Below are positions 19,733 through 40,254 of a DNA stretch of 44,053 bases, in pieces. Origin of the DNA: Phycisphaerales bacterium (GTDB lineage Bacteria; Planctomycetota; Phycisphaerae; UBA1845); the NCBI GenBank assembly GCA_013140575.1, contig JABFSN010000148.1, forward strand, positions 1 to 44,053. The letters run 5' to 3'. Each line of letters starts with the position of its first letter. Position 1 is the stretch's first letter. A program made the translations under genes and the position numbers. The notes under the pieces were generated by a model. It saw only the letters and a list, made by a program, of their open reading frames with translations. It did no database searches and was not told the origin of the DNA.

Positions 19733-21628
19733 CTAGGGCTTCGGCGCCTCGTGCAGCATAGCGTACAGCGCGGCGATCTGCGAGTCATCGGGTTTGAGAG
19801 CGGCGGCGCGGGCCGCGTGCCGTCGGGCCTCATCGTGGCGCCCGACCACGGCCAGGCCGACAGCGAGATTGTAATGGGCGTCGGCAAAACCCGGTCGAAT
19901 CTCGATCGCGCGTCGCAAGTGGTCCATGCCGGCCGCCACCTCACCCATTTCCATTTGCAAGGCTCCCAAATCATACTGGGCTTCGGCGAATTCGGGTCGA
20001 AGTCGAATCGCCTCCCCCAAATGCCGGCAGGCTGCCTCACGGTCGCCCGTCCGAAAGTACCAGCCCCCGACGCGATATTGCAAATCAGGACACTCGGACG
20101 CCTCGAGCAGCGCTCGGCGACCGTGTTCGATCGCCTCTCCAAGACGACCCTGACCGGCCAGGGATACGCCCAGTTGCTCCAAGGTCCAGTGGTCTTGCTG
20201 ATGGCGACGAAGCCTGCCTCGAAGCAGCGCCTCGGCCTCCTTCCAGTGTGCCTGTCGATGATACAGTTCGACAAGGGGGCGTTCGACGCTTTCGGTCGGC
20301 CAGAATCCCCAGTCGATCGCGCGCCGCAAATGGTGAAGCCCCGCGGCGCTGTCTGCTAATTGGGTCGGCGCCGTGTTCGCCGTCGATTCCGTCGCGGCCC
20401 GCGCCAACACGGATGCCGCCAGCGAACGCCCGCGGTACGTGTCGTAGCGAATGAGGCCGCTATGAATGGTCAGTGCGCCACAACCCAGCATCACCGCTAC
20501 AAACACGACCCCCACACGCGTTAGTCGACCCTGACGTTTCACCGGCGTGCGGTTAAACGAGACATTCGCCTCACTCATAAGGCGAACGCAGACGATGCCG
20601 GAGTATGATGCTGTCCCCGCAAGGCCCAGCGTTAATAGAAACGGAATCTTGTCATAGAGGCCTCTGTAAACGAGCAGGACCGCTACGAAGATCAAGGCCA
20701 TCAGGCATTCCTGTGGCCACGAGAAGTCGTATTGCTTCCTGACTCGAACATCGCGGTACGGCACGGCCCCAAGAGCGGGGCGTCCGAAAGCGTACCGCAC
20801 GGCCTCGTTCGGACACGCCGCCACACAATCGAGGTCTTTCAAGCACGCGGGGTTGACGACGGCGCCGAATCGCTGAAGTTCCTCGTGGACGCGGACATTG
20901 GATTGACAGACGGCGGTGCATACGCCGCATTGCGCGCAGTCCTTAACCAGGCGTATTCGGCCGAGGGCGATCCGATCCACCACACCGAAGATGGCCCCAT
21001 AGGGGCAGCCGTAACGGCAGAAACTCCGTGATCCCAAAACGTATATCACCAGGAATCCGACGACGAAGAAGGTCAGTGCCGTAATGCCGGGCTGGGGGAG
21101 ATTCCTCCAGAAGTTTTGTGTGGTGAACGACGCCCAACCATCCGCATCCGTGGCCACGCGAAGCTCCACCCACGGCCGTCCCTGCCACAGCCGCAGAATT
21201 TGCGGCCAGGCGAACATGTAGCCCGCGGCGATGGCGGGCACGCAGAGCAAAGCCCGACTTCGAATGGGCTTGGGGCGAAGGCGCAGTTTCCGCAGGATCC
21301 ACGCGGACAGGTCTTGTAGCGCCAGAATATGGCACCCCCAGGAACAAAAGAACCTCCCAAAGACCGCGGTCGCACAGACGACCGTCACCATGAACAGAAA
21401 ACCCGCGGTGACGATTCCAAGCTCAAGGGTATAAAGAACCTCATTCAACTCGAGTGGGGCAAGCGTTTTTCCGGTAATTCGCCAGTGGGCGATATGAATG
21501 CCGGCAAGCACATGCACCAGCACTAGCGTGGCCACGCGCCAGCGCGTGTAGTCGCGCTGGCGCCGCGGCGTCTCGCGCCCTGGAGAGGCGATCGATCCCT
21601 TCGCCGTTTTCGACATACGCCGCATCAT
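19733..21628 (-). CDS. NapH/CcoG-like membrane polyferredoxin fused to TPR domain
   Basis: The protein has about 631 residues. The first 300 match membrane polyferredoxins of the NapH/NosR/CcoG type: several membrane helices, the two motifs FCSWGC (95-99) and FCRYGCP (204-208), a CxxCxxCxxxC cluster (231-241) and a second Cys group CLKDLDCVAAC (262-272). Two more membrane helices follow, then at least four tetratricopeptide repeats from about 425 to the end. NapH-type proteins pass electrons from menaquinol to periplasmic reductases, so this is a candidate quinol-linked donor for the cluster's enzyme. The TPR tail is unusual for NapH and may dock a partner. The start is uncertain: ATG at 21652, 21628 or 21616 are all possible. 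Confidence 0.8.
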   Translation of the reverse strand: MMRRMSKTAKGSIASPGRETPRRQRDYTRWRVATLVLVHVLAGIHIAHWRITGKTLAPLELNEVLYTLELGIVTAGFLFMVTVVCATAVFGRFFCSWGCHILALQDLSAWILRKLRLRPKPIRSRALLCVPAIAAGYMFAWPQILRLWQGRPWVELRVATDADGWASFTTQNFWRNLPQPGITALTFFVVGFLVIYVLGSRSFCRYGCPYGAIFGVVDRIALGRIRLVKDCAQCGVCTAVCQSNVRVHEELQRFGAVVNPACLKDLDCVAACPNEAVRYAFGRPALGAVPYRDVRVRKQYDFSWPQECLMALIFVAVLLVYRGLYDKIPFLLTLGLAGTASYSGIVCVRLMSEANVSFNRTPVKRQGRLTRVGVVFVAVMLGCGALTIHSGLIRYDTYRGRSLAASVLARAATESTANTAPTQLADSAAGLHHLRRAIDWGFWPTESVERPLVELYHRQAHWKEAEALLRGRLRRHQQDHWTLEQLGVSLAGQGRLGEAIEHGRRALLEASECPDLQYRVGGWYFRTGDREAACRHLGEAIRLRPEFAEAQYDLGALQMEMGEVAAGMDHLRRAIEIRPGFADAHYNLAVGLAVVGRHDEARRHAARAAALKPDDSQIAALYAMLHEAPKP

Positions 21629-21760
21629 CCCATGTACCCCGGACGTGCCCATCGAGCGCACCACGGAAACGGGAATGCTGGTCCGCAAGATTGGTGCGCA
21701 TCGTCCTTGCGGTGTCTCCCCGAGGCTGAAGGGCGCGTGTGGGTCACGTATTGACGAGCA

Positions 21761-23608
21761 TCACTCCGGGAATGCAATCTGAAACCCGGCGAAGTCTCTG
21801 AGATCAACGTCGCCGCCCCCATTGAAATCCATGCACAGGCAGCCCTCCGCGCCGACACCCCCCGGACCGGAGGCGCATTCGACGTACCGACTCAAGTCGC
21901 CCAAGTCGAGGTCGCCGTCCGCGTCGGCGTCCCCGCGTAGAAAGGCCGCGAGAGCCAGTTCGTCGGACACAATGGGAATCGGCGGACCCTTGTCGGTCGC
22001 AAGCCACAGATCGTACAGTATGTCGCCCCACTGATCCGAGTGGTTACCGTCGCGCAAGGCTTCGATGTAGTGCCGGGTTACCGTCTGGTAATTCACCACA
22101 ACCTCCACCCGAGCGGCGCTATCCGGGATCCAGAAATCAGTGTCATCCCAATACTGGTTGTCGGCATAGACGCTGCCAACCGCCGGAGCGCCGGCAGCGC
22201 TATACGCTGCATTGTTAAATCCGCGTGGCGGAATACGAGTATCCTTTTCGATGGTGTCGGCCAGGGCCATATGCGTCGTCACGCCGGGAGGATAACCCGT
22301 CGCCGACGCGGCGGACTCACTCAGACCCACATGCATTTCGTACACCTCGGTGGACGCATCGTCGAGTTCGGCTTCGTCGTCGTCGTAGTGCCCGTACTCG
22401 CGCACCAGTTGATCTGCCTGGTCAAATACACGGACGTTGACCCATATGCGCCGGCCCTCGATATGACCGGTGGGGATCTTGTGACCCGATTCATTGATCA
22501 CGCGAACACGCACCGCGCCGCATTCCTGATGTATCTCGAGGGATGCGGAACGCTGCAACATGTCTATGGCCTTGGCAATGCCGACGTCGAGCGCCGCGGG
22601 ATCCATGGCCGGATCTCCCGCATAGTGGAGTTTCGTAATCTCAAGAACCCAGGCGCTCGCCCCGGCAAAATCATGCCTCGCCAGGTCTTCGCGGACGTCT
22701 CCGTTGACACATCCGTAGCCGCTCGCCTTGGGCATGTGGCAGTCCTGGCAGGTACTGACGACGGTGGAGCCTGTCCCACCGAAACGCCCGCCCATATCCA
22801 CGCCGCCATCGGCAAACGCGCTTAGCTTCCACTCCGTATACGTGCGCTCCAATGGAAACTGCTCCCACGGGTCTTCGTCCGCGCAAGGCTCGTTCAGGTT
22901 GTTATACCGATACGCCCCGTCCGGTTGACGCGCGACGGCCAGATTCCCCACGTCGTGGCAGGTGCCGCACATGTCGCCCGATTTGACAAAAGGAGAATAG
23001 ACCCACGGGTGCATGGGATGTCCGTCGGTGTAGGGGCCGCGGCGCAAACCGTTGGTGTCGAGCACGAACATGGCGTTGCCGTAATAGTCCGGCACGGACT
23101 CCAGTGCTTGCAGGATCGGAATGTCCTGCACTGGACTGACCCCGGCCACGTAGACCGGATCCACCATGCTGTGACACAGATGGCAGGTGACGCCGTCCCG
23201 GTCATAGTTGTTCAACGTTTGACCGGTGGCGTCATGGGCGTGTCCGCTAACGAAAGACAACGGCACGTGACAGCGCAGACAATAGTACCCCACATTGTCG
23301 ACGTCCTGGTTCGCGGTCGCCAGTTGCGCGAAAAAGAGAGGGTCCCGACCGGCATTGGCCATCAGACTGCCCTGCCACGTGTCGAACGGATCGTTGGGCG
23401 GATCTATCGCCGCGTGGCACACGGAGCAGTTCTGCGCCGGAAGAATCACGGATGGTTCGACGTCGCCGATCTGAGTTCCCGAAATGTGAAAATCAAGCAG
23501 GGTCATGGGGATGCCGCCGGCGACCACCATGCTCGTCGCGGCCAGCACACCCAATACCGGCACTCTCCTCGCTCGCCGACGGGCGAGCGCCACCATTCCT
23601 CGGTCCAT
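21761..23608 (-). CDS. Secreted pentaheme cytochrome c with dockerin-like C-terminus
   Basis: The protein has 615 residues. A signal peptide or anchor (about 16-36) precedes five CxxCH heme c sites: CSVCH 61-65, CLRCH 110-114, CHLCH 142-146, CGTCH 214-218 and CQDCH 287-291. The C-terminal half is heme-free, beta-rich (HKIPTGHIEGRRIWVNVRV), and related in layout to the heme-free part of the pentaheme encoded at 32546-34966. The last 55 residues form a pair of dockerin-like calcium loops (GDADADGDLDLGDL and DFNGGGDVDLRDF). It probably carries electrons outside the membrane for the cluster. The start at 23608 has GGAGG 6 nt upstream. A dockerin-like tail on a multiheme cytochrome is odd and may anchor it to a surface scaffold. 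Confidence 0.85.
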   Translation of the reverse strand: MDRGMVALARRRARRVPVLGVLAATSMVVAGGIPMTLLDFHISGTQIGDVEPSVILPAQNCSVCHAAIDPPNDPFDTWQGSLMANAGRDPLFFAQLATANQDVDNVGYYCLRCHVPLSFVSGHAHDATGQTLNNYDRDGVTCHLCHSMVDPVYVAGVSPVQDIPILQALESVPDYYGNAMFVLDTNGLRRGPYTDGHPMHPWVYSPFVKSGDMCGTCHDVGNLAVARQPDGAYRYNNLNEPCADEDPWEQFPLERTYTEWKLSAFADGGVDMGGRFGGTGSTVVSTCQDCHMPKASGYGCVNGDVREDLARHDFAGASAWVLEITKLHYAGDPAMDPAALDVGIAKAIDMLQRSASLEIHQECGAVRVRVINESGHKIPTGHIEGRRIWVNVRVFDQADQLVREYGHYDDDEAELDDASTEVYEMHVGLSESAASATGYPPGVTTHMALADTIEKDTRIPPRGFNNAAYSAAGAPAVGSVYADNQYWDDTDFWIPDSAARVEVVVNYQTVTRHYIEALRDGNHSDQWGDILYDLWLATDKGPPIPIVSDELALAAFLRGDADADGDLDLGDLSRYVECASGPGGVGAEGCLCMDFNGGGDVDLRDFAGFQIAFPE

Positions 23609-23707
23609 TTTCCCCCTCCTCGGCTCCTGTCTTGGGAGCAACAAGAGGCCGTCGCCTTCGGACGAACCAGGCGAACGGGCCTACAGAGTTCTCTTATCCA
23701 TATTTGC

Positions 23708-24706
23708 TCACCGGGCACTCACGACCCGCCCGACAGCGGGGTCCCCGCGCAGGCGGTCCGTGAAATCAAAACCCAATGCAACATTTTCGCTCCATGCCGC
23801 ACTGGATTCGACACACTGGCGGCACGCACCGTCATCGGCGTTCCACTTGGGAAAGACCCGGCGGACGCGGGCCACGATTGTCGCATCTCGATCCGACTCA
23901 AACCAATGCCAGTCGCAGGTGGGAAAACGACACAGCGGACACAGATCACCCGTTCCCGTTTTCCCTACGCGGCTCTTCACCGCGCCTGTCCCGAGCGCCG
24001 TGAAGTTTTCGGCCCACGTCCAGAGATCACAATGCGTCAATGATCCAGCATACACGACTCTGGCGAACACGGCCGGATCCGCTCCGTAATAATCGGTCGC
24101 GAAGGCGCGATCGAAGGCCCGCTTCAGCCGATCCACCTCGGCGATGGTCGATCGGCCCTCGCTCAACAGTCGGCCTTCGACATAGCCGTTCCACAGAACT
24201 CCGTAACGGTCGCGCACGAGATTCCGCCGCGACGCCGGGCCCTCCCATTCCTCTTTTCTGTAACCGAACCGGTCATCCAACATATCCGCGATGTGCAGCA
24301 GCTCACGTCGCAGATAAAGTTGCAGCGATTCGCCGTCGCACAGTTGTTCCGCCGTCACGGCGATCACGACCGTCTGTTCCGCCCCACCGGCGCCATCCGC
24401 GCTGGGCCGCACAAACAACTCGGCCCCGCCGTCCTTGACGCCCCCGGCGCGGCGGACCAGAAAGCGATGCGCCCGCTCCGCGATGATGGGTCGCTCCGCC
24501 AACAAAGCCGCGATCACTTCATCGAGTCCGAATCGATGGAACAACTGACTGTATGTCTCGCTAAACTTGGACTCACGCGCATGTCCCGGCGCACTCGCGT
24601 AAAACGGATCGGTCGCCGTGTGCAGCTCCCGTTCCAGGCGCCGGTCCATTCGGGCCTTTAGAAAGACGGCTTGCTCGATCAGGTTCGGATCGTATTCAAT
24701 TCGCAT
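23708..24706 (-). CDS. Unrecognised conserved-looking protein with C-terminal CxxC pairs
   Basis: The protein has 332 residues and no signal peptide, so it is probably cytoplasmic. I do not recognise the family. The N-terminal 230 residues look helical (RRELLHIADMLDDRFGY, LKRAFDRAFATDYYGAD). The C-terminus has a likely zinc site: CPLC...C near 257-265 followed about 35 residues later by CRQC. It lies between the TorD-like chaperone gene (20 bp gap) and the pentaheme gene in the operon. By analogy with FdhE, a zinc-ribbon maturation protein for formate dehydrogenases, a role in maturing or delivering the molybdoenzyme is plausible. This is inference from layout and context, not from sequence identity. 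Confidence 0.75.
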   Translation of the reverse strand: MRIEYDPNLIEQAVFLKARMDRRLERELHTATDPFYASAPGHARESKFSETYSQLFHRFGLDEVIAALLAERPIIAERAHRFLVRRAGGVKDGGAELFVRPSADGAGGAEQTVVIAVTAEQLCDGESLQLYLRRELLHIADMLDDRFGYRKEEWEGPASRRNLVRDRYGVLWNGYVEGRLLSEGRSTIAEVDRLKRAFDRAFATDYYGADPAVFARVVYAGSLTHCDLWTWAENFTALGTGAVKSRVGKTGTGDLCPLCRFPTCDWHWFESDRDATIVARVRRVFPKWNADDGACRQCVESSAAWSENVALGFDFTDRLRGDPAVGRVVSAR

Positions 24707-24726: not shown

Positions 24727-25521
24727 CTAAGTCCCATCGATGCGGAGAGGTACGAGCTCCTCCCGCGCCGAACCAGAACCGCATTCCCTTGAACCACATG
24801 AAATGCCGGCGTCCTCTTGAATCTCCGCGGGGGCCAGTTGCAGATGGCTCGAGCCCCGGGGCGCCTCGCATTGCTCGCATTCGTCTCCGATGAAATCCAG
24901 TCCAAACGCCGCCAATGAACCAAAGAACCCTCTTCCATCGGCCTGCGCAACACGCCGCGCGAAAGCCGGAAACCAACGCCCCAGGTGGTCGGCCAGAAAG
25001 GCGCGCTGGGCGGAGCGAATCGTCTCCAGTCCCGCTTCGTCGCCGACGCTCTCAGCCCACGCCTCTTTCATGGCCAAAACCGACATGAACTCACATTCCA
25101 CCGACACGTGATCCGCGCGTTCGTGCGAGGCGGCGCCGATTTCCAATCCAAATGCGGTATAGAAACCCACTATGTCCGCCAGCTCCGGGGCCTGTTGCAC
25201 AATGTCCCGCCGCCCATACTCCAGCTCGTACGGCGGGCACTGTCCGCGCACGGCATGTCCGAACAGGCGGCCGTAAGACTCCTGCAACGTCTCCACCGAA
25301 GACCGACCCGCGCCGCGCAGATGTCTCAAGAGACGCATCCGCGTCGCGCTGTGTCGCTCGGCCAGATGCCCCGTGGCGCTGCGCAGTTCCAACCGCCGCG
25401 CAGGGTCGGACAGGGTCTGCGTCATTTCGGCGTCCGGGTAGCGAAACGCGCAGGCTAAAAGTCCCCACACACACTGCCGCCCCGCGGCGGCTTTCACTTC
25501 GTCACCCATGGTACACTGCAT
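24727..25521 (-). CDS. TorD/NarJ-type molybdoenzyme chaperone
   Basis: The protein has 264 residues, all-helical, cytoplasmic. The core matches the TorD/DmsD/NarJ superfamily: an N-terminal WGLLACAFRYPDAEM, YGRLFGH...CPPYELEYG, and a FYTAFGLEIG...ERADHVSVECEFMSVLAMKEA helix pair. These chaperones bind the catalytic subunit's leader and core during cofactor insertion and prevent premature Tat export. Its position directly after the Fe-S subunit gene identifies the NxrA-like protein as its client. The last 50 residues are less ordered and contain a few cysteines (CEQCEAP). The ATG at 25521 is preceded by GGGG about 7 nt upstream. Confidence 0.88.
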   Translation of the reverse strand: MQCTMGDEVKAAAGRQCVWGLLACAFRYPDAEMTQTLSDPARRLELRSATGHLAERHSATRMRLLRHLRGAGRSSVETLQESYGRLFGHAVRGQCPPYELEYGRRDIVQQAPELADIVGFYTAFGLEIGAASHERADHVSVECEFMSVLAMKEAWAESVGDEAGLETIRSAQRAFLADHLGRWFPAFARRVAQADGRGFFGSLAAFGLDFIGDECEQCEAPRGSSHLQLAPAEIQEDAGISCGSRECGSGSAREELVPLRIDGT

Positions 25522-25572
25522 GTTATCGCCCCGTACGCCGGCCTCAGTCCTAATGTTGTCCAGACGTCCGCA

Positions 25573-26850
25573 TTAGATTGAATTCGCGTGCGCGGCCGGC
25601 CGCACGTGCACCGGCTCCTCCACCTGGGTGCGGAACATCTCCTGATCCCGCCGATCGAACGCAATAATGGTATCATCGTACATTTCGAATTTCTTCCCGT
25701 CGCGGATTGTCTCATAAACCTTGGGGCCCTCTTTCACTTCGTAGCGGAAGATGATTCGATTCGACCGGCGAAACAACTGCAAAACGGCCAGCAACTCGCG
25801 ATCGGGAGTGCGGTACCGTTCCACCGCGTCGCGAACCCCGGGGCCGAACATCTGTTCAAGATACTTCACCGGCACCCAACGGGGCGGAATATAGTAACCA
25901 TTGGGTTCGGTGCCAAACTGGGGATACAGCGGCAGCGCCACCCTGGCCACATGCACCAGATAATAAAGAGGATTGTAACGGTCCTCGATCCAGGTCGTGT
26001 CCTCCTTCACTTTGACCAGCCCCTGCATGCGCACCTGCCCGATGCACGCGGCCATGCAGCGCGTCTCCATCGGCACTCCGCCCGACTCGGGGTCGCTCCC
26101 CTCAATCCGCGGATAGCAGGCTATGCACTTTTCACTGGTGCGGGTGGTGCCGCGATACATGGACTTCTTGTAGGGGCATGCCTCCACGCATTTCCGATAA
26201 CCGCGGCACTCCTTCTGGTCGATCAACACGATGCCGTCTTCGGGACGCTTGTAAATCGCATTGCGCGGGCACGCGGCCAGACACGCCGGATACGAACAGT
26301 GATTGCACAGCCGGGCCAGGTAGTAGAACCAGGCGGAGTGCTTGGTGTCCCCGGACACCTCTTCGCCCCGACCGAAATCCATCGGCTTCGACTGGCCCCG
26401 CTGCGGCACGTCCTCGTGCATGTTCGGGGACTGCCACTCCTCGTCACTGGGAAGGTACCCGAGCACCTGGTTCGGTTGACCCCCGCGAGCCACGAATTCC
26501 GGCGCCTCGAACACGGTCTTGCCGGCGAAGCGGCCATAAGGGTCGCGCGGGGCGCCCGAGGGGCGTCCGTTCCATCTCTGCCCGCCGGGATCGGCCCGAT
26601 CGAGCAATTCCAGAATCTTGGCGTCCCAGTGATGCGGGTATCCGCCGTAGGGCTTGGTCTCGACGTTCGTCCACCACATGTGCTCCTGACCCTTGGCAAA
26701 CGTCCATGTGCTCTTGCACGCCATGGTGCAGGTCTGACACCCGATGCACCGGTTGATGTTTATGACGAATGCGAACTGTTCCTTGGGAGCGGCCTGCTCG
26801 TACGGGTATCGCATTTGCCGTCCCAGTTGCCAGTTATAGACGGTGGGCAT
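25573..26850 (-). CDS. nxrB-like: NxrB/NarH-like four-cluster Fe-S electron-transfer subunit
   Basis: The protein has 425 residues. The sequence closely follows NxrB of Nitrospira and anammox bacteria as I recall it: VYNWQLGR at the N-terminus, RCIGCQTCTMACKSTW, MWWTNVETKPYGGYP, CNHCSYPACLAACPRNAIYK, PYKKSMYRGTTR and EKCIACYPRIEG. Fifteen cysteines are placed for clusters (35/38/41/45; 182/185/190/194; 215/221/225; 242/245/265/269), fitting three [4Fe-4S] and one [3Fe-4S]. It relays electrons from the molybdenum subunit to the heme subunit. It has no signal peptide, so it would be carried out by the Tat-dependent alpha subunit. Position 45 is Cys; I recall Asp there in several true NxrB proteins. 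Confidence 0.92.
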   Translation of the reverse strand: MPTVYNWQLGRQMRYPYEQAAPKEQFAFVININRCIGCQTCTMACKSTWTFAKGQEHMWWTNVETKPYGGYPHHWDAKILELLDRADPGGQRWNGRPSGAPRDPYGRFAGKTVFEAPEFVARGGQPNQVLGYLPSDEEWQSPNMHEDVPQRGQSKPMDFGRGEEVSGDTKHSAWFYYLARLCNHCSYPACLAACPRNAIYKRPEDGIVLIDQKECRGYRKCVEACPYKKSMYRGTTRTSEKCIACYPRIEGSDPESGGVPMETRCMAACIGQVRMQGLVKVKEDTTWIEDRYNPLYYLVHVARVALPLYPQFGTEPNGYYIPPRWVPVKYLEQMFGPGVRDAVERYRTPDRELLAVLQLFRRSNRIIFRYEVKEGPKVYETIRDGKKFEMYDDTIIAFDRRDQEMFRTQVEEPVHVRPAAHANSI

Positions 26851-26859
26851 GGCTGTCTC

Positions 26860-27183
26860 CTATTCCTGCAGGACCGGCAAACTGACTCGCCCGTCCGGCG
26901 TGCGTTCCAAGATTAACTTCGACGACCGGTGATTGCGTAGCGCCATGTGATCCTCAAGCAAACTTTGAATCGCCGCCTCTCCCAAGGCGCGATACGCCAT
27001 GTACGGTCCGGCGTATCCCGGCGTTTGGAAAATGCGCATGATTCGGATCGCGTCGCATCCCAATCGCGCATATTCCTCAACAAAGCACTCCGCCATCTCA
27101 CGCATCGCGCTGTCATCCTCCGTCTCCACGGCGACACCGTGAAGCGTCATCGGATCGGTCGGGTCGGGATCGTCATAGGGCAT
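26860..27183 (-). CDS. Small unknown protein between alpha and beta subunit genes
   Basis: The protein has 107 residues, acidic at the N-terminus (MPYDDPDPTDPM) and helical after that (MREMAECFVEEYARLGCDAIRIMRIF). No signal peptide or known domain is seen. The start was set by GGAGG 9 nt upstream of ATG 27183; the longer ORF reading has no support. It begins 4 bp after the alpha-subunit stop and ends 9 bp before the beta start, so it is co-translated with the enzyme subunits and is likely a dedicated accessory or assembly factor. I do not recognise it as a subunit of characterised NarGHI or NXR enzymes. Confidence 0.75.
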   Translation of the reverse strand: MPYDDPDPTDPMTLHGVAVETEDDSAMREMAECFVEEYARLGCDAIRIMRIFQTPGYAGPYMAYRALGEAAIQSLLEDHMALRNHRSSKLILERTPDGRVSLPVLQE

Positions 27184-27187
27184 TGTC

Positions 27188-30100
27188 TTATTCCTCCGCC
27201 TCGCCATCGACCTCTTCTTCATCAGCCCCGCCGACATACCCGCCGGCCAGGTATCGTCTCATGACGTCGCTTTCGTTGCCGGGCGAGTATCCGCCCGTCG
27301 CCGCCGCCCACACGCCCTTGCCGCCCAGTCCGCCGTCTTCCGCTTTCACCACCCGCACCAGCGTCTCCTTGGGCACGGTGTTGATGGCATGGTTGTCGGC
27401 CTCTCCCCCAAAGAGGAACCCCATGAAAACCTTGCTCTTGTGAAACAGCGTGTCGGTCTGATGCATCGGCATGTGCCAGTTCCGCGTAACGCTCTGTTGC
27501 GAGCCGTAACGCAGGTTGGCCTGATACCCGTCGTCGGACAGGGCTCTTCCGTCCGGGCGCGCCTCATGGGCTTTCACGCTCTTCTCCGTTGCAATGTACG
27601 GGGCGTGCTTCATCATCACCACGTTGTACGGATAGGCCGGGTTATAGACCGCCCGCAGCATCAAACGCGCGACTTTGTAGTACGGGTCGTCCGGCCGGGC
27701 GCCCCGATAGGGGCGGTCCGCGGGATTGGCATCGACGTACACATAATCGCCGTCTTGAATGCCCTGGTCTTTGGCCGCCTGTGGGTTCATGTGCATCTGA
27801 TGCTCTCCCACATAGGGCGCCCGCCGGTCGATACGGTGCGGATCGCCGAAATTACTGTCGTAGATCATGTGCCAGTCCACATTGCTCCAGCTCGAATGCA
27901 CGCGGTGCCGCGTCTTGGGAGTCAGGCAGTAGAAGTGAAACCCACGCGCCCACAAAAAGTTCTGGGTCTTCCGCACCTGTTCCCATGGCATCTTGATATT
28001 TCGGATAGTCCGCTCATCCCAATGCTCGGCGTCGGGACTGACACCGTAGTCGTCGGGACGAACATACGGGTTGCTTGAAACGATGACGTTTGGAAGGTAC
28101 GGCGTCGCCTCCGGGCCCTCGCGATGGACAATGAAGTTCTCGCCATATTCGATCGCCTCAGGCACGTCGGCATACGCGTGCAGCCGGCCCGTGTCGGTAT
28201 GGAACGGCTCGTCGTCGTGCACCTGTTCCCAGAACGGTATGCGCGGATACGTTCGGAATAGAAGCAGAGACGCCCCCGGCGGGCCGTACTTGCCCGCCAT
28301 GATGTCGTCCAGCAAGTATCCCGCCGTCGTGGTGCATGAATCCAGCAGCCTTTGAATGTACACCCGACGCTTGCCCTCGTGCTCGAATTTGAAATAATCG
28401 AAAAACCGCCGGTCACCCGTCTCGTCCGCCATCGCCTTGGCGATGCCGGCCAAAATGGTGAGGTCGTCCTTGGTATCAAACAGCGGCTTGATCCCGCCCT
28501 TCCAAATCTGAAGAAACGGATTCGAGCACGACGCAGTGATCTCCAGGTCCTCAAATTCCACCCAACTGTTCGCGGGCAGACCAATGTCCGCGTATTGAAC
28601 CGACGACGTCATCACGATGTCCTGCGCGACGATCATCTCGATCATCGGATTGACGTTCTTGAACATGTCGTAACAGTGCTTGGCGTTGTTGAAGAGATTC
28701 ACGTTGGTGAAGTGCAGCGTCTTCGTCGGCGTGGGCATGTGCGTCTTGCCGGTGAAGACCTTGCGACCGGCCTTGGGAGTTTCCACGATCAGCGGCCGGT
28801 CCCCATGATTCCAGTACGCCGGCTCTTCATCCTTGCAGTAATTGTGCGCGTGAATGTCGCGCCCGTGGGCTTTCTCATCCAGATTGGCCTCGAAGGGATC
28901 CTCCGCCACCCATCCCTTGAATCCCGGACCGGTGATCTTGCTTCCCTGGAACAGTGCGGCCTTGTAGTTGCCCGCCCAACCGTGCACACCGGTTCCTTTC
29001 TTGCCGATGTTACCGGTCAGCATAATCGGCAGGTAGGCCGCCCGATTCGCCTCCGTCGCGTGAAACCAGTGGTTGATCCCCTCTCCCTGATGAATGGCCA
29101 CCGGGCCGTTCGACTGCGTCGTCTCCCAGATGTCTCGAGCCAGCCGCTCGATCATGGCTTTGGGCGCGTGGGTGATCTCCGCCACTGTATCGAGGTCGTA
29201 GTCTCGCAGATGCACCTGGTACAGCGACCAGAGCGTTTGCACTTCCACTTCCGTTCCGTCGACCAGCTTGATTTTCCAAATGCCGTCCAATGTCGGCTCT
29301 ACGCCCTTCTCCACCATCCGCCGGCCCACGTCGTCCCGGGTGATGGCCACTGGACCACCGCTTTTTGCGTCCCAGACTACGCGGTCGCCGATCTTGGCGT
29401 ACTGCTCGTCCGTCAACCCTTGGACTCTGTAGCTCGCGCCCTCTTTCGCCAGTCCGCGTTCGTAGTTGGAAAACACCTCGTCGGCGCGCACGCGCGTCAG
29501 TGTGTCCGTCCGAACCAATAGCGGGAAGTCCGTAAACTGCTTGATAAACGCTTCGTCGTACCACTTGTTGTCTATCATGTGCCGGGCAACGCCCAGCCAG
29601 AACGCCGCATCCGTCGCGGGGCGGATCGGAATCCAATAATCCGCCTTGGTGCTTGGGGCTCCGTATTCCGGCGCGATCACCACGATTCGCCCGCCCCTCT
29701 CCATGCACTCGATAAACCAGTGCGAATCGGTCAGTTTGTTCTCCACGAGGTTTTTGCCGTTCATAATGATGAGCTTGCTAAACCTCAGGTCGTTGAAATC
29801 GCAATCGGAATTCTGCAGACCATGCACCCAGGGTTGTCCGGGCGTCTGATCGCCGTGCCAGGTGTAGTTGCTCCAGTTGCGGCCGGCCTTCGCCTCTTTG
29901 GGACCGACTTTGCGAATGTGCGCGTCCAACAGGGCCATGGAATTGTTCAGCCGATACATGCCGTATTTGCCGATGACGCCGGTGAGTCCCATTCCGCCGC
30001 GCATCTTGAAGGTCCGCGTGCCGGCGCCGCCCATCTCCTCGATCATCTCCTCCGGATAGCCCTGTGCCCGCAGCCTGGTCGCGCCGGCCTCGCCGCTGTA

Positions 30101-30690
30101 TCGTGTTGCGACGCTCACGTATGCTTTCGCAATGTAGCGCCAGACCTCGTCCCACCCGATGCGCACGTGTACGTCCGAGCCGCGGCTGTCGAATTGGAAT
30201 TTGGTGCGATTTCCGTCAGCGTCCAGGTCTGGGAAGCCGGCGTCCGCCCACTCCTTCCACCCCTTTCGAATAATCGGATGCTTAAGCCGGTATGGACCGT
30301 AGACCAGCCGGTGAAATGTATAGCCCTTGGCACACTGCCGCGGGTTCCAGTTGGCCGTCGCATGGTTTCCGTATATGTCGGAATAGTTCTGATAGTCGTA
30401 TTGCGCTCCCATGCGCGTGATAATCCCGTTCCGCACGTACGCCTGAACGCGGCACGCGTGCGTGTCGTTCGGAGAGCACACCCAACTGAACGTATGGTCG
30501 TAACGGAACTGGTCGCGGTAGATTTGTTCCCACTCCCGTGCGGGATAGTAGGCCAGCGGGTTGACGATGTCAGGACGGAACGCCAGTGCCCGAAGTGGCC
30601 AGCCTCCCGCGAGTGTGCCCACGGCGACGCCGGACGTCTTGAGAAACTCGCGACGCGTTGCATGACTCGCCAGTCGCTCAGCTTTCATTG

Positions 30691-30694
<4 letters not shown>
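27188..30694 (-). CDS. nxrA-like: Tat-exported molybdopterin catalytic subunit, periplasmic NxrA/NarG-like
   Basis: The protein has 1,168 residues. A twin-arginine leader (TRREFLKTSG at 13-22) shows export of the folded enzyme. It is a type II DMSO-reductase-family subunit: the N-terminal FS0 cluster region has Cys73, Asp77, Cys81 and Cys121. The block around 278-330 (YTWHGDQTPGQPWVHGLQ, then NSDCDFNDLRFSK, GKNLVENKL) matches periplasmic nitrite oxidoreductases as I recall them, with Asp297 the candidate Mo ligand. It should bind bis-MGD and interconvert nitrate and nitrite, or act on a related oxyanion; direction cannot be read from sequence. The start has GGAGGT upstream and overlaps the stop of the UnbV gene (ATGA). 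Confidence 0.92.
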
Positions 30695-32545
<1,851 letters not shown>

Positions 32546-32571
<26 letters not shown>

Positions 32572-34966
32572 CCAAAGACACCTGTTCCCCGCCATCGCGC
32601 CGAACGCGAATAACCGCCTCCGCGCGAGCAATGGGTGTAACCTCGCTCCTTACTTTCTTCTCCGTCCCGAACAGCCGATCGAGAAACGGCGCACTGTATT
32701 TGCAATACATCACCGTCGCCGTGACTCTTAGTTGATCGCCGGCCACCGCGGCGGGCACGGCAAACTCTTTCGCGTCCGTGCCGGAAACCACCGTCCGCTT
32801 CGATGCGTCCGCCGGCATGGCCGGACACTCAAACGAGAAGTCGGTCGTGTCGGCGAACCCCGGGAAGAGCGTTCGCTTGAACCGGGCGCCCACCATGTGC
32901 CACAACTCGTGCCGTCCGATCAGGTCCGCCTGCTTGTCGATGAGCTCCGCCTTGAAGACGATCTTGGGATTGACCAGGTACCCGCGATCATCCGGCCTGG
33001 CGGACGCAAACACCACGTTCCCCGAATCATCGGTGACGGAAACTTCCACCCAACCTTCGATCATGTCCATCGGACCGGTCGGGAAGTCGTGGCCCGCCTT
33101 GTTGTTCGTCACCACCGCCTGGATTGTGACCGATTCCCCCGGACGCACCTCTTCCGGCGCGGCAAGATCGACGCGCACCACCGGCCCCGCGGTCCACCGA
33201 TCCTCGATTTCCGGCACCTCATACTCCCCGCGCAGCCACTTGACTGTCAGTTCGCAATGCTCCTCCGCGCCCGGCAACTTATGGACTCTGGGAACGAACT
33301 GGTTCGCGCCCAGAAACCTATGGCTGCGGTGTTTCCCGTCGTTCGCACTGCGGTTGGGATCATCCACATCCCCGGCCGCCGGATCTCGTGAGTTTGCCAC
33401 CAGCGGCATATGGCACTCCCGGCAGGACACGGTCTTCACCGGATCCCCTTCCGTGTGCCATCGGCTCTTCCGCCAACTGTCGTACTGGTTCTGTCCCTGC
33501 ACCCAGCCGAAGTCATTCAGCTCTTCGTCGACGAACTGCTTGTGACACGCCCCGCATGCCTCCGCCGTCTTGTACAAGCGCCGCGAATACGACTCGACGT
33601 GCTGCCGGGGATACGCCCGAATCAGAAAATCGCTTACCGTCTTCGCCACCACGCCGTCGTGAAGCTCGTAGACGTATCGCGTCGCCGGATCGATCGTATA
33701 ATCCGCGTTGCCGCGCACATCCGTCTGGGTCGTGCTATGACACGAGAGGCAGGAGACGCCCTCGTCCGCTCCTTCCGCACTGAGCGTCTCATTGCCGACG
33801 TTCTTGGCTCCGCTGAAGAGCGAGATGGGGTCGTGGCACCCGGCGCAATAACGCGTCGCCTCCGGAATCAACTCCGAAGCCATGTTGACCTGCACGGCCT
33901 GAAACACGAAGTCCATCGACGCATACCGATGGGCACTCGGCGTCCACTCTTCCACGATTTCAGGGTGACAGCCGCTCGTCCCGCATCCTGCCGAACCCGC
34001 AAGCGTTCGCGGATCGATCCCACCGCTCGTCGCGAACTCCGCCCGTGCGTCGGCCAGCGCTGAGTCGACGGCCCGCCGCCGCCCCTCTTCAAGCTCCATT
34101 GCGTCGCACAATTGCTCCGCCACCGTGACGATCCCGACGTGTTTGTTCGGATCGATCTTCAGATTCTTCAGAAACACCTGCCTCTGCGAATCGTTCAGCA
34201 CCGAAGCTACGCGGCTTGTCAATCGCTTCTCGGTCTCGCTCATATCCTTGCGCGCCAGGCTCGGGGCAAACGGACGGTCCTGGCCGTATCGAAAACTGTA
34301 ATTCGCGGGAAACGACTCGTTGAGTGCGACCGGCGCATAAGTCAACGCCATCGCGACACACGCCGCCGACGGCGCCGCGCCCCACGCGATCGTCTGAACC
34401 ATGCACGATCGCATGGCCGACCCCATCCGCTGACGGACCTCCTGATTGTTGCTCTTGCGGAACACCAGTGTGGCCAGATGCGCCCCCAGCCCCGCGACGA
34501 AAACCACGCCCGTCACGATATGAACCAGGTCCCAGCCATACTCAATTCGCGTCCCGGCAATCGCCTGCCACGTCAGCACACCGCCGCTCACGAACAGAGC
34601 CAGCAGCGCCGCCGCCGACACATACCCCAACAACTGATAATGACTGAGGTTCCCGCGAAACCGCATCCACCAGTGTTGACCGACATACCACCCCACGGGC
34701 ACTACCATCAGTACCCCCAGCACCGTGTGCCAGAGCACAGAAAACTGATTGGCGACGGAAAAGTCGAGGAGATAAATCGCGAATCCGGTTACCGTCTCGA
34801 ACAAGAGCAGTCCCAGGGTCAGACCCGTCAACGGACGCCGCCATTCACTGGCCGCGTCCACCCGGCCCGCCGGCGTCGCCCGCGGGTTCGCCGCGCGGTC
34901 CGGCAAATCCGACGTGCCGCACGACGTCTCTTCTCTTACAACACCTGGCGTTGTCCACCGATCCAT
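32546..34966 (-). CDS. Membrane cytochrome b fused to extracytoplasmic pentaheme cytochrome c
   Basis: The protein has 806 residues. The N-terminus has about five membrane helices (46-70, 74-96, 111-135, 146-170, 192-212) with histidines (80, 98, 110, 149, 163) suited to b-heme ligation, like a b561/NarI-type quinone module. The following domain has one CX4CH site (328-334) and four CxxCH sites (CAGCH 374, CLSCH 406, CGACH 471, CRECH 515), then a beta-rich part containing NNKAGHDFPTGPMDMIEGWVEVSV split over loops. It probably exchanges electrons between the quinone pool and the exported enzyme, replacing NarI. The start at 34966 was chosen over an in-frame TTG at 35026 because it has a purine-rich site and avoids overlap. 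Confidence 0.88.
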
Positions 34967-35018
34967 CGCACCGGCCCTCTCAAAACGGTGCCCCTCGACG
35001 GCAGCCCCGCTCGACGCG

Positions 35019-36869
35019 CTATTCAATCACTAGCTTCTGCCAGATGCTGATGTTCTTCTTTCCGTCCCGATCACCCGCGCCGCCGTTCCAAATGGCGAAC
35101 GACACCGGCAGATAATCGCCCGCGTCGAACGCCCGCTCGTCTGCGTCCTCGTGCGCGTGCGGCAGCGCCAGCGACCGCTGCATCTGCACATACCACACGC
35201 CCCGATGATGCACCGCCTCCCCTTGCACCATCTGCACATTCGACGGCTTGCCCGCCAGCGTCCCGGGGCCCCGGGCCACCAGACATTCGACCGGCGTGGT
35301 CAGCTCCGGATCCGCCACCAGATTTCCCGCGCCCCACGCAGTGATGAACTGCGCATCGTGCTCGGTGATCGTCGCCGGCGGCAACGGCCACACCGCCATC
35401 GCTGAAGTCGTGACCCGTTGCTCGGGATACCGGTCCACCGCCCGGTCGGGAAACGCGGCGTCCACATCCTGGTACCCGTCCTTGATGTTCTTCTGGCGAT
35501 CCGCCTTCCAAAACCAGATGTTCACGCCCCCGTGCTCGCCCGTGTCGCCCATGTAGAACGGCGGATCGCTGCTCAGCGAAAACTGAATGGCCACGCCGTC
35601 GCGAAATTCGTCCTGCCGCACCGCGCGCTCGTCCGGCGCCGCGTCGATCCACACCAACCGAAAAGCCAGCTCGTCATCATTGTGCAACGCCTGCACCGTC
35701 AGGCCTTCCACTCGGTCTTCCGTCCACCACAGAGGAGTCAACGCCACGTACACCGCGCGGGCCTGCTCCCACTCGGGCGCCATCGGTTCCGACGGCAACG
35801 GCCCGCGAATGTTCGGCGCCACGATCGTCCGTTGCTGCAAGCGCGCCCGCTCCTGCGCCCCTTGGCGCGACAACGACTGCACGTAGTGAATCAGGTCCCA
35901 CATCTCCTCATCGTTGTAGACGCTGCCATACCCCGGCATCGGCGTCCCCTTCAGCCCCTTCACGATCCGTGCGTAGAGCTGATGCCCCTCGTCTCCCCCC
36001 TTGAAAATGCCGTTGACGAACGACCGCGGCGGAACCGGATAGCCCTCGTTGTCGTACTTCACGGCCTCCGCCACCGGATGACCGCTTTCTCCGTGACAGG
36101 TCGCACACCCTTCCAGATACGTCCGCCGCCCCCGAAACCAGTGTACGTCATCAAACGCAGGTTCCGGCGGAACGACTAGCGGGGCTTCCGACTGCGTGCG
36201 CTCCGCCAACGCGTCCGCAAGCTCTTCAGTCTTGATCGTTCCCTCGGCGACCCACTTTTCCAGTTCCGTCCGCGCCCCACCGACGTGCAGTTGCCGCACC
36301 AACGTCACCAGCGCTCGAAGGTCCGTCGCCGGCAGATGCCCCCACGGCGGCATCGCCGACCCCGGCATCCCGCGGCTGATGGTCTGCAACAGATCGTCGT
36401 CCGACGGAATCTGGTTCCGCGTCGTCGCCAGCTTGAAATTCCCCTGCTGCAGGTTCCGCGGCCGTGGATTCATCAGATACGCAAACTTGCCGGCCCCGTC
36501 ACCCTGATCGCCGTGGCAGATCGAACAGTACTTGGCGAACAGCGTCGCGCCCCGGGCCGCGAGGGGATCAGCCGACGATGCGGCCGCAGCGGCTTGGCCT
36601 TCTCCCGGGGCAGCGCGATCCGCTTCGGCCGCCTTCGACTTCGGCGAATTCGCAACCCCATCGGACGAAGCGTTGCGAACTTGGTGCGATTTTTCCACTG
36701 CTGTGTCGCTCCGCAGGTCGACCGACGGAGGCGCCTCATCCGGCGCACCCTCCAGCTTCGCGACATTCGCCACGCACGCGCTGATCGCCATCGTCGCCAG
36801 CATGACGCCCACCGCGCAACCCCAACCGTGGTCCGGCAGACGGATCCGCCCTAAACCTTGACGATTCAT
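35019..36869 (-). CDS. nxrC-like: Dicytochrome c fused to ethylbenzene-dehydrogenase-gamma-like heme b subunit (NxrC-like)
   Basis: The protein has 616 residues. A lipoprotein-type signal ends in ISAC (Cys32), followed by an Ala/Ser-rich linker and two mono-heme cytochrome c domains: CSICH 115-119 with GMPGSAMPPW, and CATCH 255-259 with GTPMPGYG. From about 362 to the end it is a heme-b-binding domain of the EBDH-gamma/DdhC/NxrC type (VNIWFWKADRQ, PVSFAIWNGG, ISIWQKLVIE). In this enzyme family the gamma subunit takes electrons from the beta subunit. Here two c-hemes are fused on, making a built-in exit to other cytochromes. The start overlaps the Rrf2 stop (ATGA) and has AAGGGA upstream. Confidence 0.9.
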   Translation of the reverse strand: MNRQGLGRIRLPDHGWGCAVGVMLATMAISACVANVAKLEGAPDEAPPSVDLRSDTAVEKSHQVRNASSDGVANSPKSKAAEADRAAPGEGQAAAAASSADPLAARGATLFAKYCSICHGDQGDGAGKFAYLMNPRPRNLQQGNFKLATTRNQIPSDDDLLQTISRGMPGSAMPPWGHLPATDLRALVTLVRQLHVGGARTELEKWVAEGTIKTEELADALAERTQSEAPLVVPPEPAFDDVHWFRGRRTYLEGCATCHGESGHPVAEAVKYDNEGYPVPPRSFVNGIFKGGDEGHQLYARIVKGLKGTPMPGYGSVYNDEEMWDLIHYVQSLSRQGAQERARLQQRTIVAPNIRGPLPSEPMAPEWEQARAVYVALTPLWWTEDRVEGLTVQALHNDDELAFRLVWIDAAPDERAVRQDEFRDGVAIQFSLSSDPPFYMGDTGEHGGVNIWFWKADRQKNIKDGYQDVDAAFPDRAVDRYPEQRVTTSAMAVWPLPPATITEHDAQFITAWGAGNLVADPELTTPVECLVARGPGTLAGKPSNVQMVQGEAVHHRGVWYVQMQRSLALPHAHEDADERAFDAGDYLPVSFAIWNGGAGDRDGKKNISIWQKLVIE

Positions 36870-37312
36870 TGTCGTTCCCTTTTTCCAGAACCGTTGCCGC
36901 TTGCGCCGTTTTGCCCGACGCTGACGTCTTGAATCGAGGTCGTCCGCAGGAACTCGCCGTACGCGTCCCGCACGCTCTTCCAACGCGCGTGTCCGGCACA
37001 GGGGTTTGCATCACCACAGATTTCATTCCCGAACGGACACGGACGACTCGGACCCAGCGCCGGTTCAAAAGGCGTGAGGATTTCGTGAAGCCGCACCTCC
37101 TGCGGCCGACGCACCATTCGAAACCCGCCGCCGACTCCCGGCGTCGCGACCAGCACACCCGCCCGCACCAGTTGCCCCAGAACATTGGACAGGTACTTGC
37201 GCGGAATCCCCGTCTCCTCCGCGATCTTCGGCCCGGGAATCGGCCACTCGTCCACGTGTCGCGTCAGACACACCATCGCCCGTAACGCATATTCGCTCGT
37301 TCGAGAAAGCAT
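36866..37312 (-). CDS. Rrf2-family Fe-S transcription regulator, IscR/NsrR-like
   Basis: The protein has 148 residues. Residues 1-65 form the Rrf2 winged helix (SEYALRAMVCL, PRKYLSNVLGQLVRAGVL, GVGGGF). Three cysteines at 92, 99 and 105 plus His108 match the CCCH cluster ligands of IscR closely (IscR 92/98/104/H107), with one extra residue in the first spacing. It therefore probably senses via an Fe-S cluster: NO, O2 or cluster status. It is the first gene of the respiratory operon, translationally coupled to the NxrC-like gene, and should control the cluster and itself. The ribosome binding site is weak, which fits low expression of a regulator. Confidence 0.9.
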   Translation of the reverse strand: MLSRTSEYALRAMVCLTRHVDEWPIPGPKIAEETGIPRKYLSNVLGQLVRAGVLVATPGVGGGFRMVRRPQEVRLHEILTPFEPALGPSRPCPFGNEICGDANPCAGHARWKSVRDAYGEFLRTTSIQDVSVGQNGASGNGSGKRERQ

Positions 37313-37333
37313 AATCAGCTATCGCCTATACGT

Positions 37334-37366
37334 CTACAATTATGTAGTTAATACGCGTCGTGTCAA
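37334..37366 (-). promoter_or_regulatory. Sigma70-type promoter with overlapping palindrome, respiratory operon
   Basis: On the minus strand, a perfect -35 TTGACA (37361-37366) is followed after 16 bp by a -10 CATAAT (37339-37344). The predicted transcript start lies about 20 nt ahead of the Rrf2 start codon. A 14-bp inverted repeat with 5-bp arms, CTACA-N4-TGTAG (37334-37347), covers the -10 exactly. A repressor bound there would block transcription, and the Rrf2 protein is the obvious candidate. Confidence 0.75.
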
Positions 37367-37515
37367 GCGGATTCTCCAAAAAAACTGGCCGTCCCCAAAA
37401 AGGCCCCAACGCTTCAGCGAAACCATCATAACTATATATTTTACAAACTGTTATAAATCGCTTAGTCCATCGTCAACTTACGCCGGTCGGCGTCGACAAC
37501 GGCGACCGGTTGGCC

Positions 37516-40101
37516 TCAGCGGACGGCGCAGAGTCGGCGGAAGTCCGGAAGGATATCGGCAAGCCGGGCGGAATCACCCTCGGCGAGGATCAGGGCACGT
37601 TGGTACGTCTCGACGGCAGCTTCGAGTTGGCCCAGCGTCCAATAAACGTTCGCCAATGTCTGCAAGCTCTCAATGTCGCCGGCGGTCGAGACTTCCACGC
37701 ATTTCTCCGCCGCGGCGAGGGCCATGTCGGGGTCAAGTAGATCGGCGACGGCGTCGTGCCATAATCGACGAGGAAAGTGCCGCAGAACGGCACGCGTGGC
37801 CTTGCCGTCGCGAATGGCCTCTTCAGCGATTCCCACCGCGCGTCGACACTGCTCTCGTCCTTCGTCAACTCGGCCGAGATTGACCAGAAACTCACCCAGA
37901 TCGGCGTTGGAGAGGTACAGACGCTCAATACTCTCGCGGTGGTCGGGCGCTCGAATCATGGCTGTTTCGCAAACACTCACCGTTCGCCGATAAAAGCCTT
38001 CGGCCGCGACGTAATCGCCCAGAAGTTTGGACACGTTCGCCAACCCGTTGAGGGCCTTCGTCAGGCACGACGGTGGAACTTCATCCGTTTTTTTCTGAAG
38101 AAGCTCCTCAGCGAGCTGCAGAGCGCGGAGGAACCACGCCCGTTCGGACTCGGCATTGCCCTTGCTGCGTTCCTTATGTGCACGGTCGATGTACCACCAT
38201 GCAAGTTTGTCGACGTAATAGGCGTTGGCGGGATCGAGTCGCACCATACGTTCCGCCAATTCCGTCGTTCGCCGGCAGTGGGCGCACGGTGTCGTGCGAT
38301 CGAGACAGTCCGCTCGTCGGCCGGGGTGCGCCAGTGCCGAAAACAAACCACATAGGCGGCCGGCGTTGTTGGGTTCCTCCGCGACCAGCCGCTCGCCCAC
38401 CGCTTCCTGCTTCGCTTGCCACGTTTCGGCCTGTGCCTGGTCATTAAGCTCGTAGGCGATGCCCCGCATGCGGTCGTAGCTCCAGAGCAGATTGTCCAGA
38501 AAATCGAGGTTGCCCGCATGTTCCGCAACCAGCCGTTCATCGATGGCCAGCGATTCATCGTAGTGTCGCTTGGCCGTCGCAATCTCGTTGCGCGCCTTGG
38601 CCATGTCTCCGACGCGAACGATGCTGATTGAGAGATGGGCCTGGAGTTCCGCGTTTCCCGGGTCGGCGGCGGTAAGTCGGCGACGGATGGCCAACGCCCG
38701 TTCACAATACTCCGTCGCCCGCGAGAGGTCGCCCATTCCTTCAAACAACCCTGTCGAGTGCCGGAGGGCCTCCGCGAAGTCGCTGAGCAACGCGGCGTCG
38801 TCGGGCGACTCCTGTATCATCGATTCGTAGCGGGGAATGGCGGTCGCCAGAATCTCACGTCGCACGTTTTCAGCCCCGGCCACGCGATCCAGCCGCTGGG
38901 ATACATCCTGAATAAAGAACCGGAGGTCTTCGCGAGTCTGTTCATACTTCATCCGGGCGTTCGCGGCGTGCTGGGCCTCACGCTGTCGTGCCGTACGCGT
39001 CATTTGAAGCAACACGGTCGAGGTCGCCGCCCAGCCGATGAGCAGAACCACGGCCATGGCCGTCCCCCAGGCCAGCGCCCGATGGCGGCGAACGGTCTTG
39101 TTCAGAACGTACCACGTGCTGTCGCCTCTGGCGTGAATGGGTTCACCCTGCAAATAGCGTTCGATGTCATCCCCCAGTTCCGCGGCGCTTTGATATCGCC
39201 GGTCGGGCTCTTTTGGCAGGCACTTGAGTGCGATGGTGGCGAGGTCGGAGTCGATTCCACGGACCACGCGGCCGGGGGGTTCGGGTTCGGTATGGAGGAT
39301 CGCGTCCAGAACCGTCCCCATCGAGCCGGTGACGTTGTATGGCATTCGCGCGGTCAATAGATGGTAGAGAATCAACCCCAGGGCGTAGACGTCGGTGCGG
39401 ACGTCGATGCGGTCGCGATCGCCCTCGGCCTGTTCAGGCGTAGCCCACGGCAACGAGCCGATGAACTGGCCGGTTACGGTGATGGCCGGCGCGTCGGGCT
39501 GAGGAATCGCACCGTCGTCGGTCAGCCGGGCCAGGCCGAAGTCGAGCACGCGCGGTTCGCCGCGGTCGTCAATGAGGATGTTGCCGGGCTTGAGGTCGCG
39601 GTGAATGATGCCGCGTTGATGGGCGGCGACGATGGCGTCGCAGATTTTTCCGAACACGATCAGCTTGTCGCGGATCGACAGGCGGGCCTTGGCCACGTAG
39701 ACATCCAGCGGGCGACCGGCGATGTAGTCCATGACGTAATAGCACCGCCCGTCGGCCGCTCCCCCGTCGTGCAGACGAACGATGTTGGGATGCTGCAACC
39801 GCGCCAGGGCCTGTACTTCCCGTTGAAAGCGGAGCCGATCGAGCGGCGTGGACAATGCGTGGTCGCGCAGCACCTTGACGGCCACGTCGCGCCGCGTGGA
39901 ATGCTGCCGGGCGAGATAGACCGCCCCCTGCCCGCCGCGGTGCAATTCCTTTATCAGCGTGTATCCGGGAATCGCGTCCGGCCGAAGCGCGGGCGCCGCC
40001 ACCGCGGCATCAGGAATCGCGTCCACCTGCCGCCGCGCGAGGGTGATGATCTGGCGGGAGTGTGGTGGCGCGTCATTATTGGGCGGGTCGATGCGGATCA
40101 T
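37516..40101 (-). CDS. Transmembrane Ser/Thr protein kinase with TPR extracellular region
   Basis: The protein has 861 residues. The kinase domain spans about 46-320: glycine loop GGQGAV (56-61), VAVK lysine (76), HRDLKPGN catalytic loop (167-174), DFG (187-189) and ATPEQ. It therefore has all the residues of an active Hanks-type kinase. A single membrane helix follows (about 343-366), and the remaining 490 residues are tetratricopeptide-type helical repeats on the other side of the membrane. This kinase-TM-TPR layout is common in planctomycetes. It lies downstream of an ECF sigma factor on the same strand, suggesting a signalling pair. The start at 40101 was preferred because a GTG at 40203 lies inside a palindromic repeat; no strong ribosome binding site is visible. 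Confidence 0.88.
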   Translation of the reverse strand: MIRIDPPNNDAPPHSRQIITLARRQVDAIPDAAVAAPALRPDAIPGYTLIKELHRGGQGAVYLARQHSTRRDVAVKVLRDHALSTPLDRLRFQREVQALARLQHPNIVRLHDGGAADGRCYYVMDYIAGRPLDVYVAKARLSIRDKLIVFGKICDAIVAAHQRGIIHRDLKPGNILIDDRGEPRVLDFGLARLTDDGAIPQPDAPAITVTGQFIGSLPWATPEQAEGDRDRIDVRTDVYALGLILYHLLTARMPYNVTGSMGTVLDAILHTEPEPPGRVVRGIDSDLATIALKCLPKEPDRRYQSAAELGDDIERYLQGEPIHARGDSTWYVLNKTVRRHRALAWGTAMAVVLLIGWAATSTVLLQMTRTARQREAQHAANARMKYEQTREDLRFFIQDVSQRLDRVAGAENVRREILATAIPRYESMIQESPDDAALLSDFAEALRHSTGLFEGMGDLSRATEYCERALAIRRRLTAADPGNAELQAHLSISIVRVGDMAKARNEIATAKRHYDESLAIDERLVAEHAGNLDFLDNLLWSYDRMRGIAYELNDQAQAETWQAKQEAVGERLVAEEPNNAGRLCGLFSALAHPGRRADCLDRTTPCAHCRRTTELAERMVRLDPANAYYVDKLAWWYIDRAHKERSKGNAESERAWFLRALQLAEELLQKKTDEVPPSCLTKALNGLANVSKLLGDYVAAEGFYRRTVSVCETAMIRAPDHRESIERLYLSNADLGEFLVNLGRVDEGREQCRRAVGIAEEAIRDGKATRAVLRHFPRRLWHDAVADLLDPDMALAAAEKCVEVSTAGDIESLQTLANVYWTLGQLEAAVETYQRALILAEGDSARLADILPDFRRLCAVR

Positions 40102-40195
40102 GTCGTTTGCGCCATTGTCAATCGAACGGAGCCTGTCAATTTCGAGCCGCGTGCGCCCTTTCCGAGCCGCGCCCGCGAGGAAGCGGTCTTGTAAA

Positions 40196-40254
40196 GTGGG
40201 CACCGCCCACCTTTTGGAGCATCGCGTCGCGCGAATTGGTGGGCAGTGCCCACC
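40196..40254. repeat. Paired GTGGGC palindromes
   Basis: Two related palindromes lie close together. They are 40196-40201 paired with 40205-40210, and 40238-40245 paired with 40247-40254, separated by about 27 bp. Text of the type GGTGGGCAGTGCCCACC is a dispersed intergenic repeat I recall from planctomycete and other genomes. Confidence 0.7.

Follow-up and report, generated by a model that had tools for sequence, protein, structure and literature searches.

RESULTS

An Rrf2 gene heads a predicted nitrite oxidoreductase operon

The window analyzed here, a stretch of DNA of 44,053 nucleotides, carries on its minus strand a gene for an Rrf2-family regulator of 148 residues (36866..37312, minus strand). 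As the sequence-only reading had noted, the stop codon of this gene overlaps the start of the next one, the ATG (36869-36867) and the TGA (36868-36866) sharing the letters ATGA. This second gene encodes an NxrC-like subunit (35019..36869) in which Pfam recognizes two cytochrome c domains and a haem b domain of the ethylbenzene-dehydrogenase type; through the latter it matches chain C of 7b04, the structure of the nitrite oxidoreductase (NXR) of Kuenenia (anammox).

The genes that follow, all on the minus strand and separated by overlaps or short gaps, encode a large multihaem cytochrome with a membrane part (32546..35026) together with the FG-GAP/ASPIC-UnbV protein that accompanies it (30691..32631), the NXR catalytic subunit NxrA (27188..30694; 1745.7 bits with 7b04 chain B), a small protein of 125 residues, p125 (26860..27237), the Fe-S subunit NxrB (25573..26850; 564.7 bits with chain A), a NarJ/TorD-type chaperone (24727..25521; PF02613, TIGR03482) and a protein of 332 residues (23708..24706). 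p125, which keeps its place between nxrA and nxrB in the majority of orthologous clusters, matched no Pfam or NCBIfam model, and the 332-residue protein, present in orthologous clusters, matched no NCBIfam model. The probable tail of the operon consists of a multihaem c-type cytochrome (21761..23644), with homologues of 62-66% identity downstream in loci L036 and L043, and of a NapH-like 4Fe-4S membrane protein with TPR, recognized from its translation only (19733..21688). With homologues of NxrA, NxrB and NxrC in one cluster, we identify the operon from its sequence as encoding an NXR of the periplasmic (anammox) type in the Phycisphaerae family UBA1845.

On the other side of the Rrf2 gene, directly upstream, the translation suggests a serine/threonine kinase with a tetratricopeptide-like tail (37516-40203, minus strand) and, beyond it, a sigma-factor-like gene (40394-41047).

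The regulator is probably of the Fe-S type

The regulator scored 90.8 bits with PF02082 (cut-off 30) and 90.1 bits with TIGR00738 (cut-off 73.3), which places it in the Rrf2 superfamily. Its C-terminal part holds three cysteines and a fourth candidate ligand, as in the Fe-S subgroup, and these residues (C92, C99, C105 and H108, in the pattern CX6CX5CX2H) were invariant in 41/41 members of its clade. The regulator had earlier been called an Fe-S-type Rrf2 protein, and the family match and the invariant residues agree with this, the bound cluster being a prediction. Within the family, it remained below the NCBIfam cut-offs of IscR, CymR, RirA and NsrR. The highest score with a curated Rrf2 subfamily was that of the IscR equivalog model, 52 bits, yet this is far under the cut-off of 207.55; the NsrR equivalog model gave 25.3 bits against a cut-off of 182.

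It is possible that the protein senses Fe-S or redox state as IscR does, and would thus adjust respiratory enzymes rich in Fe-S clusters and haem to the supply of clusters; this would refine the repressor mechanism proposed below. Indeed, the ligand candidates look more IscR-like than NsrR-like: they follow the Cys, Cys, Cys, His order of IscR, a [2Fe-2S] Rrf2 regulator in which C92, C98, C104 and H107 are spaced CX5CX5CX2H (PMC5411485). In addition, like IscR, the regulator heads its own operon and would regulate itself. However, its first two cysteines are one residue further apart, and no isc or suf operon was found downstream of the Rrf2 genes inspected. Furthermore, IscR controls Fe-S assembly, whereas the window protein is predicted to control respiration operons.

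A single strong promoter is overlapped by a palindrome

Upstream of the Rrf2 gene, the sequence-only reading had placed a near-consensus promoter, which we recovered on the minus strand with exactly the same positions: the -35 hexamer TTGACA (37366..37361) is followed, after a 16-bp spacer, by the -10 hexamer CATAAT (37344..37339). The Rrf2 start codon at 37312 lies downstream, and the transcript is expected to start near 37332. The window held one promoter agreeing with the consensus in 11/12 positions, and 20 dinucleotide shuffles contained no such promoter. A pattern scan of positions 19,000-38,000 gave 5 promoter-like sites against 4.6 expected, and only the Rrf2 promoter reached 11/12. 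TTGACA-16-CATAAT is the one strong promoter predicted ahead of the rrf2-nxr operon, and its TTGAC was invariant among 25 aligned homologous promoters.

The palindrome CTACA-N4-TGTAG (CTACAATTATGTAG, 37334-37347, minus strand) was likewise found where it had been reported, and it covers the entire -10 box. By itself it is no evidence for an operator, because perfect inverted repeats of the 5-4-5 type, whatever their letters, occur 76 times in the 44-kb window, and it does not go beyond chance. Nor is its rarity informative, since exact CTACANNNNTGTAG occurred once in the 5.05-Mb genome and a reversed-pattern control also occurred once.

A conserved 22-bp candidate operator covers the -10 box and the predicted start

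We collected 58 upstream regions of Rrf2 homologues from 60 related genomes as a training set from which the window was excluded. Expectation maximization at width 26 yielded a motif with a log-likelihood of 401, compared to 90-100 for shuffled sets. The learned motif reads TTGACa-N14-CkATATRnMTATRGAYRTATRG. In the homologues, the 22-bp site usually begins 14 bp past TTGACA; the -10 hexamer (TATaNt) lies inside the motif, most often 17 bp from TTGA (19/41 sites).

When both strands of the window were scanned with the position weight matrix, the best place was 37326-37349 (25.3 bits); the runners-up, at separate places, reached 16.3 and then 11.4 bits. The first of these (37418-37441) was judged close to chance level. 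R1, a profile of promoter plus site built from sequence alone, had one match in the 5.05-Mb genome at E<=10, at 37326-37367 (E 0.014). Since a motif trained without the window ranks this site first in the window and the site is the sole R1 match in the genome, we consider it real, and the reading of the palindrome as a chance repeat was dropped once the independent motif had chosen the same place. The candidate operator (CTACATAATTGTAGACGTATAG, 37326..37347, minus strand) spans the -10 box and the predicted start, and CTACA-N4-TGTAG forms its left 14 bp.

The check that the earlier reading had set for itself, conservation in syntenic loci, came out in its favor, with the correction that the longer 22-bp site is what is conserved; the literal CTACAnnnnTGTAG was found only in this genome. 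The proposal of an operator linked to the Rrf2 gene and heading a respiratory operon is supported by the candidate operator and the nxr genes, but the conserved unit is not the 14-bp palindrome.

The motif holds two overlapping dyads of similar strength, with centers at 9.5 and 13.5. In the window, only the inner, 14-bp dyad is perfect, and the outer, 22-bp one matches in 5/11 pairs. Covariation between column pairs of the half-sites revealed nothing beyond composition, and this test did not separate the inner from the outer dyad. We prefer the outer dyad, which includes the outer TATRG, because its length comes closer to that of Rrf2 operator fragments already described; for the Rrf2 repressors NsrR and IscR, operators measuring 23-29 bp are well documented (PMC9338935, PMC5411485).

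As the motif is A+T-rich and overlaps the promoter, part of its conservation must be conservation of the -10 box. The conserved sequence might even be a strong sigma-70 promoter and nothing else, with the palindrome arising incidentally from an A+T-rich -10 region. The abundance of 5-4-5 palindromes fits this, as does the fact that the -35 and -10 hexamers belong to the conserved block. However, conservation extends 8-15 bp beyond the -10 box, as TATRG-N3-TATRG, where sigma-70 makes no such demand. Furthermore, the genome matches cluster ahead of Rrf2 genes and linked operons instead of marking many promoters, and the site tracks one Rrf2 clade: it was present for 38/41 proteins of this clade (support 99/94) versus 4/18 outside. 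We thus regard a promoter without an operator as very unlikely. Within the site-bearing clade, K39, which adjoins the presumed recognition helix, was found in 40/41 members, versus mixed residues outside.

Relatives carry the site ahead of nxr, nar, nap-like and hemerythrin operons

The relatives were Phycisphaerae MAGs by contig identity, several of them from the OFTM set that the Oslofjord tunnel study assigns to family UBA1845 (PMC10732223). When R1 was run over 60 relatives, almost every strong match preceded an Rrf2 gene of the window's clade, and most matches were Rrf2 upstream sites already known. Among loci outside the training set, L141 and L150 have the site at the head of nxr operons, and the L150 copy (CTACATAATTGTGG) is almost identical to the letters of the window. 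At most other close Rrf2 loci outside the training set, the site was the best or second-best place in the locus. Of two further strong sites outside the training set, one lies upstream of a multihaem-ASPIC operon (L125) and the other upstream of hemerythrin-TnaA-like-MoaA-Rrf2 genes (L126). One R1 match, in G001:C320, had no clear target.

In L124 and L127, where R1 gave strong matches that were likewise not part of the training set, both promoter and site ahead of nxrC-nxrA are kept, although the Rrf2 gene is frameshifted in the former and nearly erased in the latter, with only faint traces left; both genomes encode intact paralogues elsewhere. Because the site is retained ahead of nxr despite the wrecked Rrf2 genes, it appears to serve the operon and not autoregulation alone.

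The multihaem cytochrome-ASPIC pair (30691-35026, minus strand) is inserted between nxrC and nxrA in the window; in relatives (L125, L062, L071 and L134) it forms a separate operon with the same operator, and this operon has its own Rrf2 gene in L062 and L071.

Paralogous Rrf2 genes bearing the site stand at the head of other gene sets: in L054 and others narGHJI together with NarK-type transporters, in L056 and others a NapA/NapG-like operon that also encodes a Rieske protein and cytochrome b, and in L050, L057, L066 and L069 hemerythrin genes. In the window, a hemerythrin-like ORF of 190 residues (about 18690-19262, minus strand) lies after the nxr operon; homologues lie directly behind the site-bearing Rrf2 genes of L050, L057, L066 and L069. 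A weak site (E 0.03) was also seen in L132 (G021:C65), ahead of a multihaem cytochrome related to hydroxylamine/hydrazine oxidoreductases.

Two of the nearest Rrf2 relatives of the window protein, in L035 and L051, have no upstream site of their own; the L035 gene seems to be the last of an operon with the site at its head. Some nxr clusters of the same family, L036 and L077, have a weak site (E 0.2-0.4). In nxr clusters from other families of the order, where the Rrf2 protein belongs to another clade, the site was absent or poor. Upstream of Rrf2 in five nxr clusters of other families (L079, L080, L086, L090 and L176), a different dyad, approximately TTGAC-N6-GTCAA, was seen by eye just past the -10 box. 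This dyad may be the operator that the other Rrf2 clade uses.

The content of the linked operons bears on the signal. It is possible that the regulator senses NO in the manner of NsrR, so that NO would destroy the cluster and derepress nxr, nar, nap and hemerythrin genes; like the IscR-like reading, this refines the repressor mechanism, and the likelihoods given to the two are not exclusive. The linked operons (nxr, narGHJI-narK, NapA/NapG, hemerythrin and MoaA) deal with nitrate, nitrite or chemistry of the NO type, and E7 and R11 occupy the places of ScNsrR D8 and R12 (36/41 each). In addition, a weak site (L133, E 0.09) precedes hcp, a classical NsrR target (PMC1274295), but we discounted it as support because several matches so weak are expected over 60 genomes. 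Against an NO sensor of this kind stand the low NsrR score, the fact that E7 is not invariant while H108 is, as in IscR, and the operator, which is unlike both the NsrR consensus gATGyAT-N5-ATrCATc (PMC1274295) and the Thermus site CTTGACCNNGGTCATGG (PMC5748679). Overall, the content of the regulon speaks for nitrogen oxides as the signal, while the ligand pattern speaks for an IscR-like cluster.

DISCUSSION

The site lies over the -10 box, is conserved, is tied to one Rrf2 clade and is retained ahead of nxr after rrf2 has been lost. We consider it probable that it is the operator of an Fe-S-type Rrf2 repressor, and DNA binding, repression, the cluster and its signal are what we infer. A dimer would bind 37326-37347 in one cluster state and, as the site spans the -10 box and the expected start near 37332, should block RNA polymerase from the promoter. 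It would thereby keep rrf2 as well as the rest of the nxr operon repressed (rrf2-nxrC-(multihaem cytochrome-ASPIC)-nxrA-p125-nxrB-chaperone), until a nitrogen oxide or the redox state alters the cluster and releases the protein. Both autorepression and repression of the operon are deduced from the position of the site and from how the family is known to act.

Activation instead of repression, as described for some targets of the Thermus NsrR, seems unlikely. NsrR-Th is reported to act as both activator and repressor (PMC5748679), and several homologous promoters have spacers other than 17 bp. However, the site covers the -10 box and the start region, and the -35 and -10 hexamers are already near consensus, as expected of a repressed promoter.

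The predicted repressor system resembles several known ones. It shares with NsrR of Streptomyces and enterobacteria the Rrf2 fold, three conserved cysteines, a near-palindromic site (23 bp in NsrR) and targets linked with nitrogen oxides (PMC1274295, PMC9338935). The operator sequences are nevertheless unrelated, and the window protein has an extra invariant histidine and heads catabolic nxr, nar or nap operons instead of hmp. NsrR-Th of Thermus thermophilus is also an Rrf2 regulator; its gene belongs to a cluster for nitrite/NO respiration, and palindromic sites mark its own promoter and those of the cluster, but these sites differ in sequence and control nir and nor genes (PMC5748679). Finally, the Oslofjord study of UBA1845 MAGs, which covers the same genome set, draws an 'FeTF', or 'iron-dependent transcriptional regulator', beside nar, nxr and nap clusters; the available part of that paper describes no operator, regulon or regulatory prediction for it (PMC10732223).

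A literature search returned no description of the 22-bp operator and no paper that connects Rrf2 regulators to NXR in planctomycetes. The site and its regulon thus appear undescribed, whereas the type of regulator, an Fe-S-type Rrf2 protein with its own operator, is already known.

UBA1845 has been proposed to include novel anammox bacteria (PMC10732223). We tentatively raise the idea, which we hold to be rather doubtful, that one type of operator, read by paralogous Rrf2 proteins, could act in this family, its candidate anammox relatives included, as the master switch that selects either nitrate reduction (nar, nap) or nitrite oxidation (nxr). The paralogues would act in trans on each other's operons, and local loss of an Rrf2 gene would thus be tolerated. 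The control of NXR genes is hardly known, and through the compact candidate operator, the nxr, nar, nap and hemerythrin operons would come under an Fe-S-type regulator; the operator motif may be used to predict members of the regulon in uncultured genomes.
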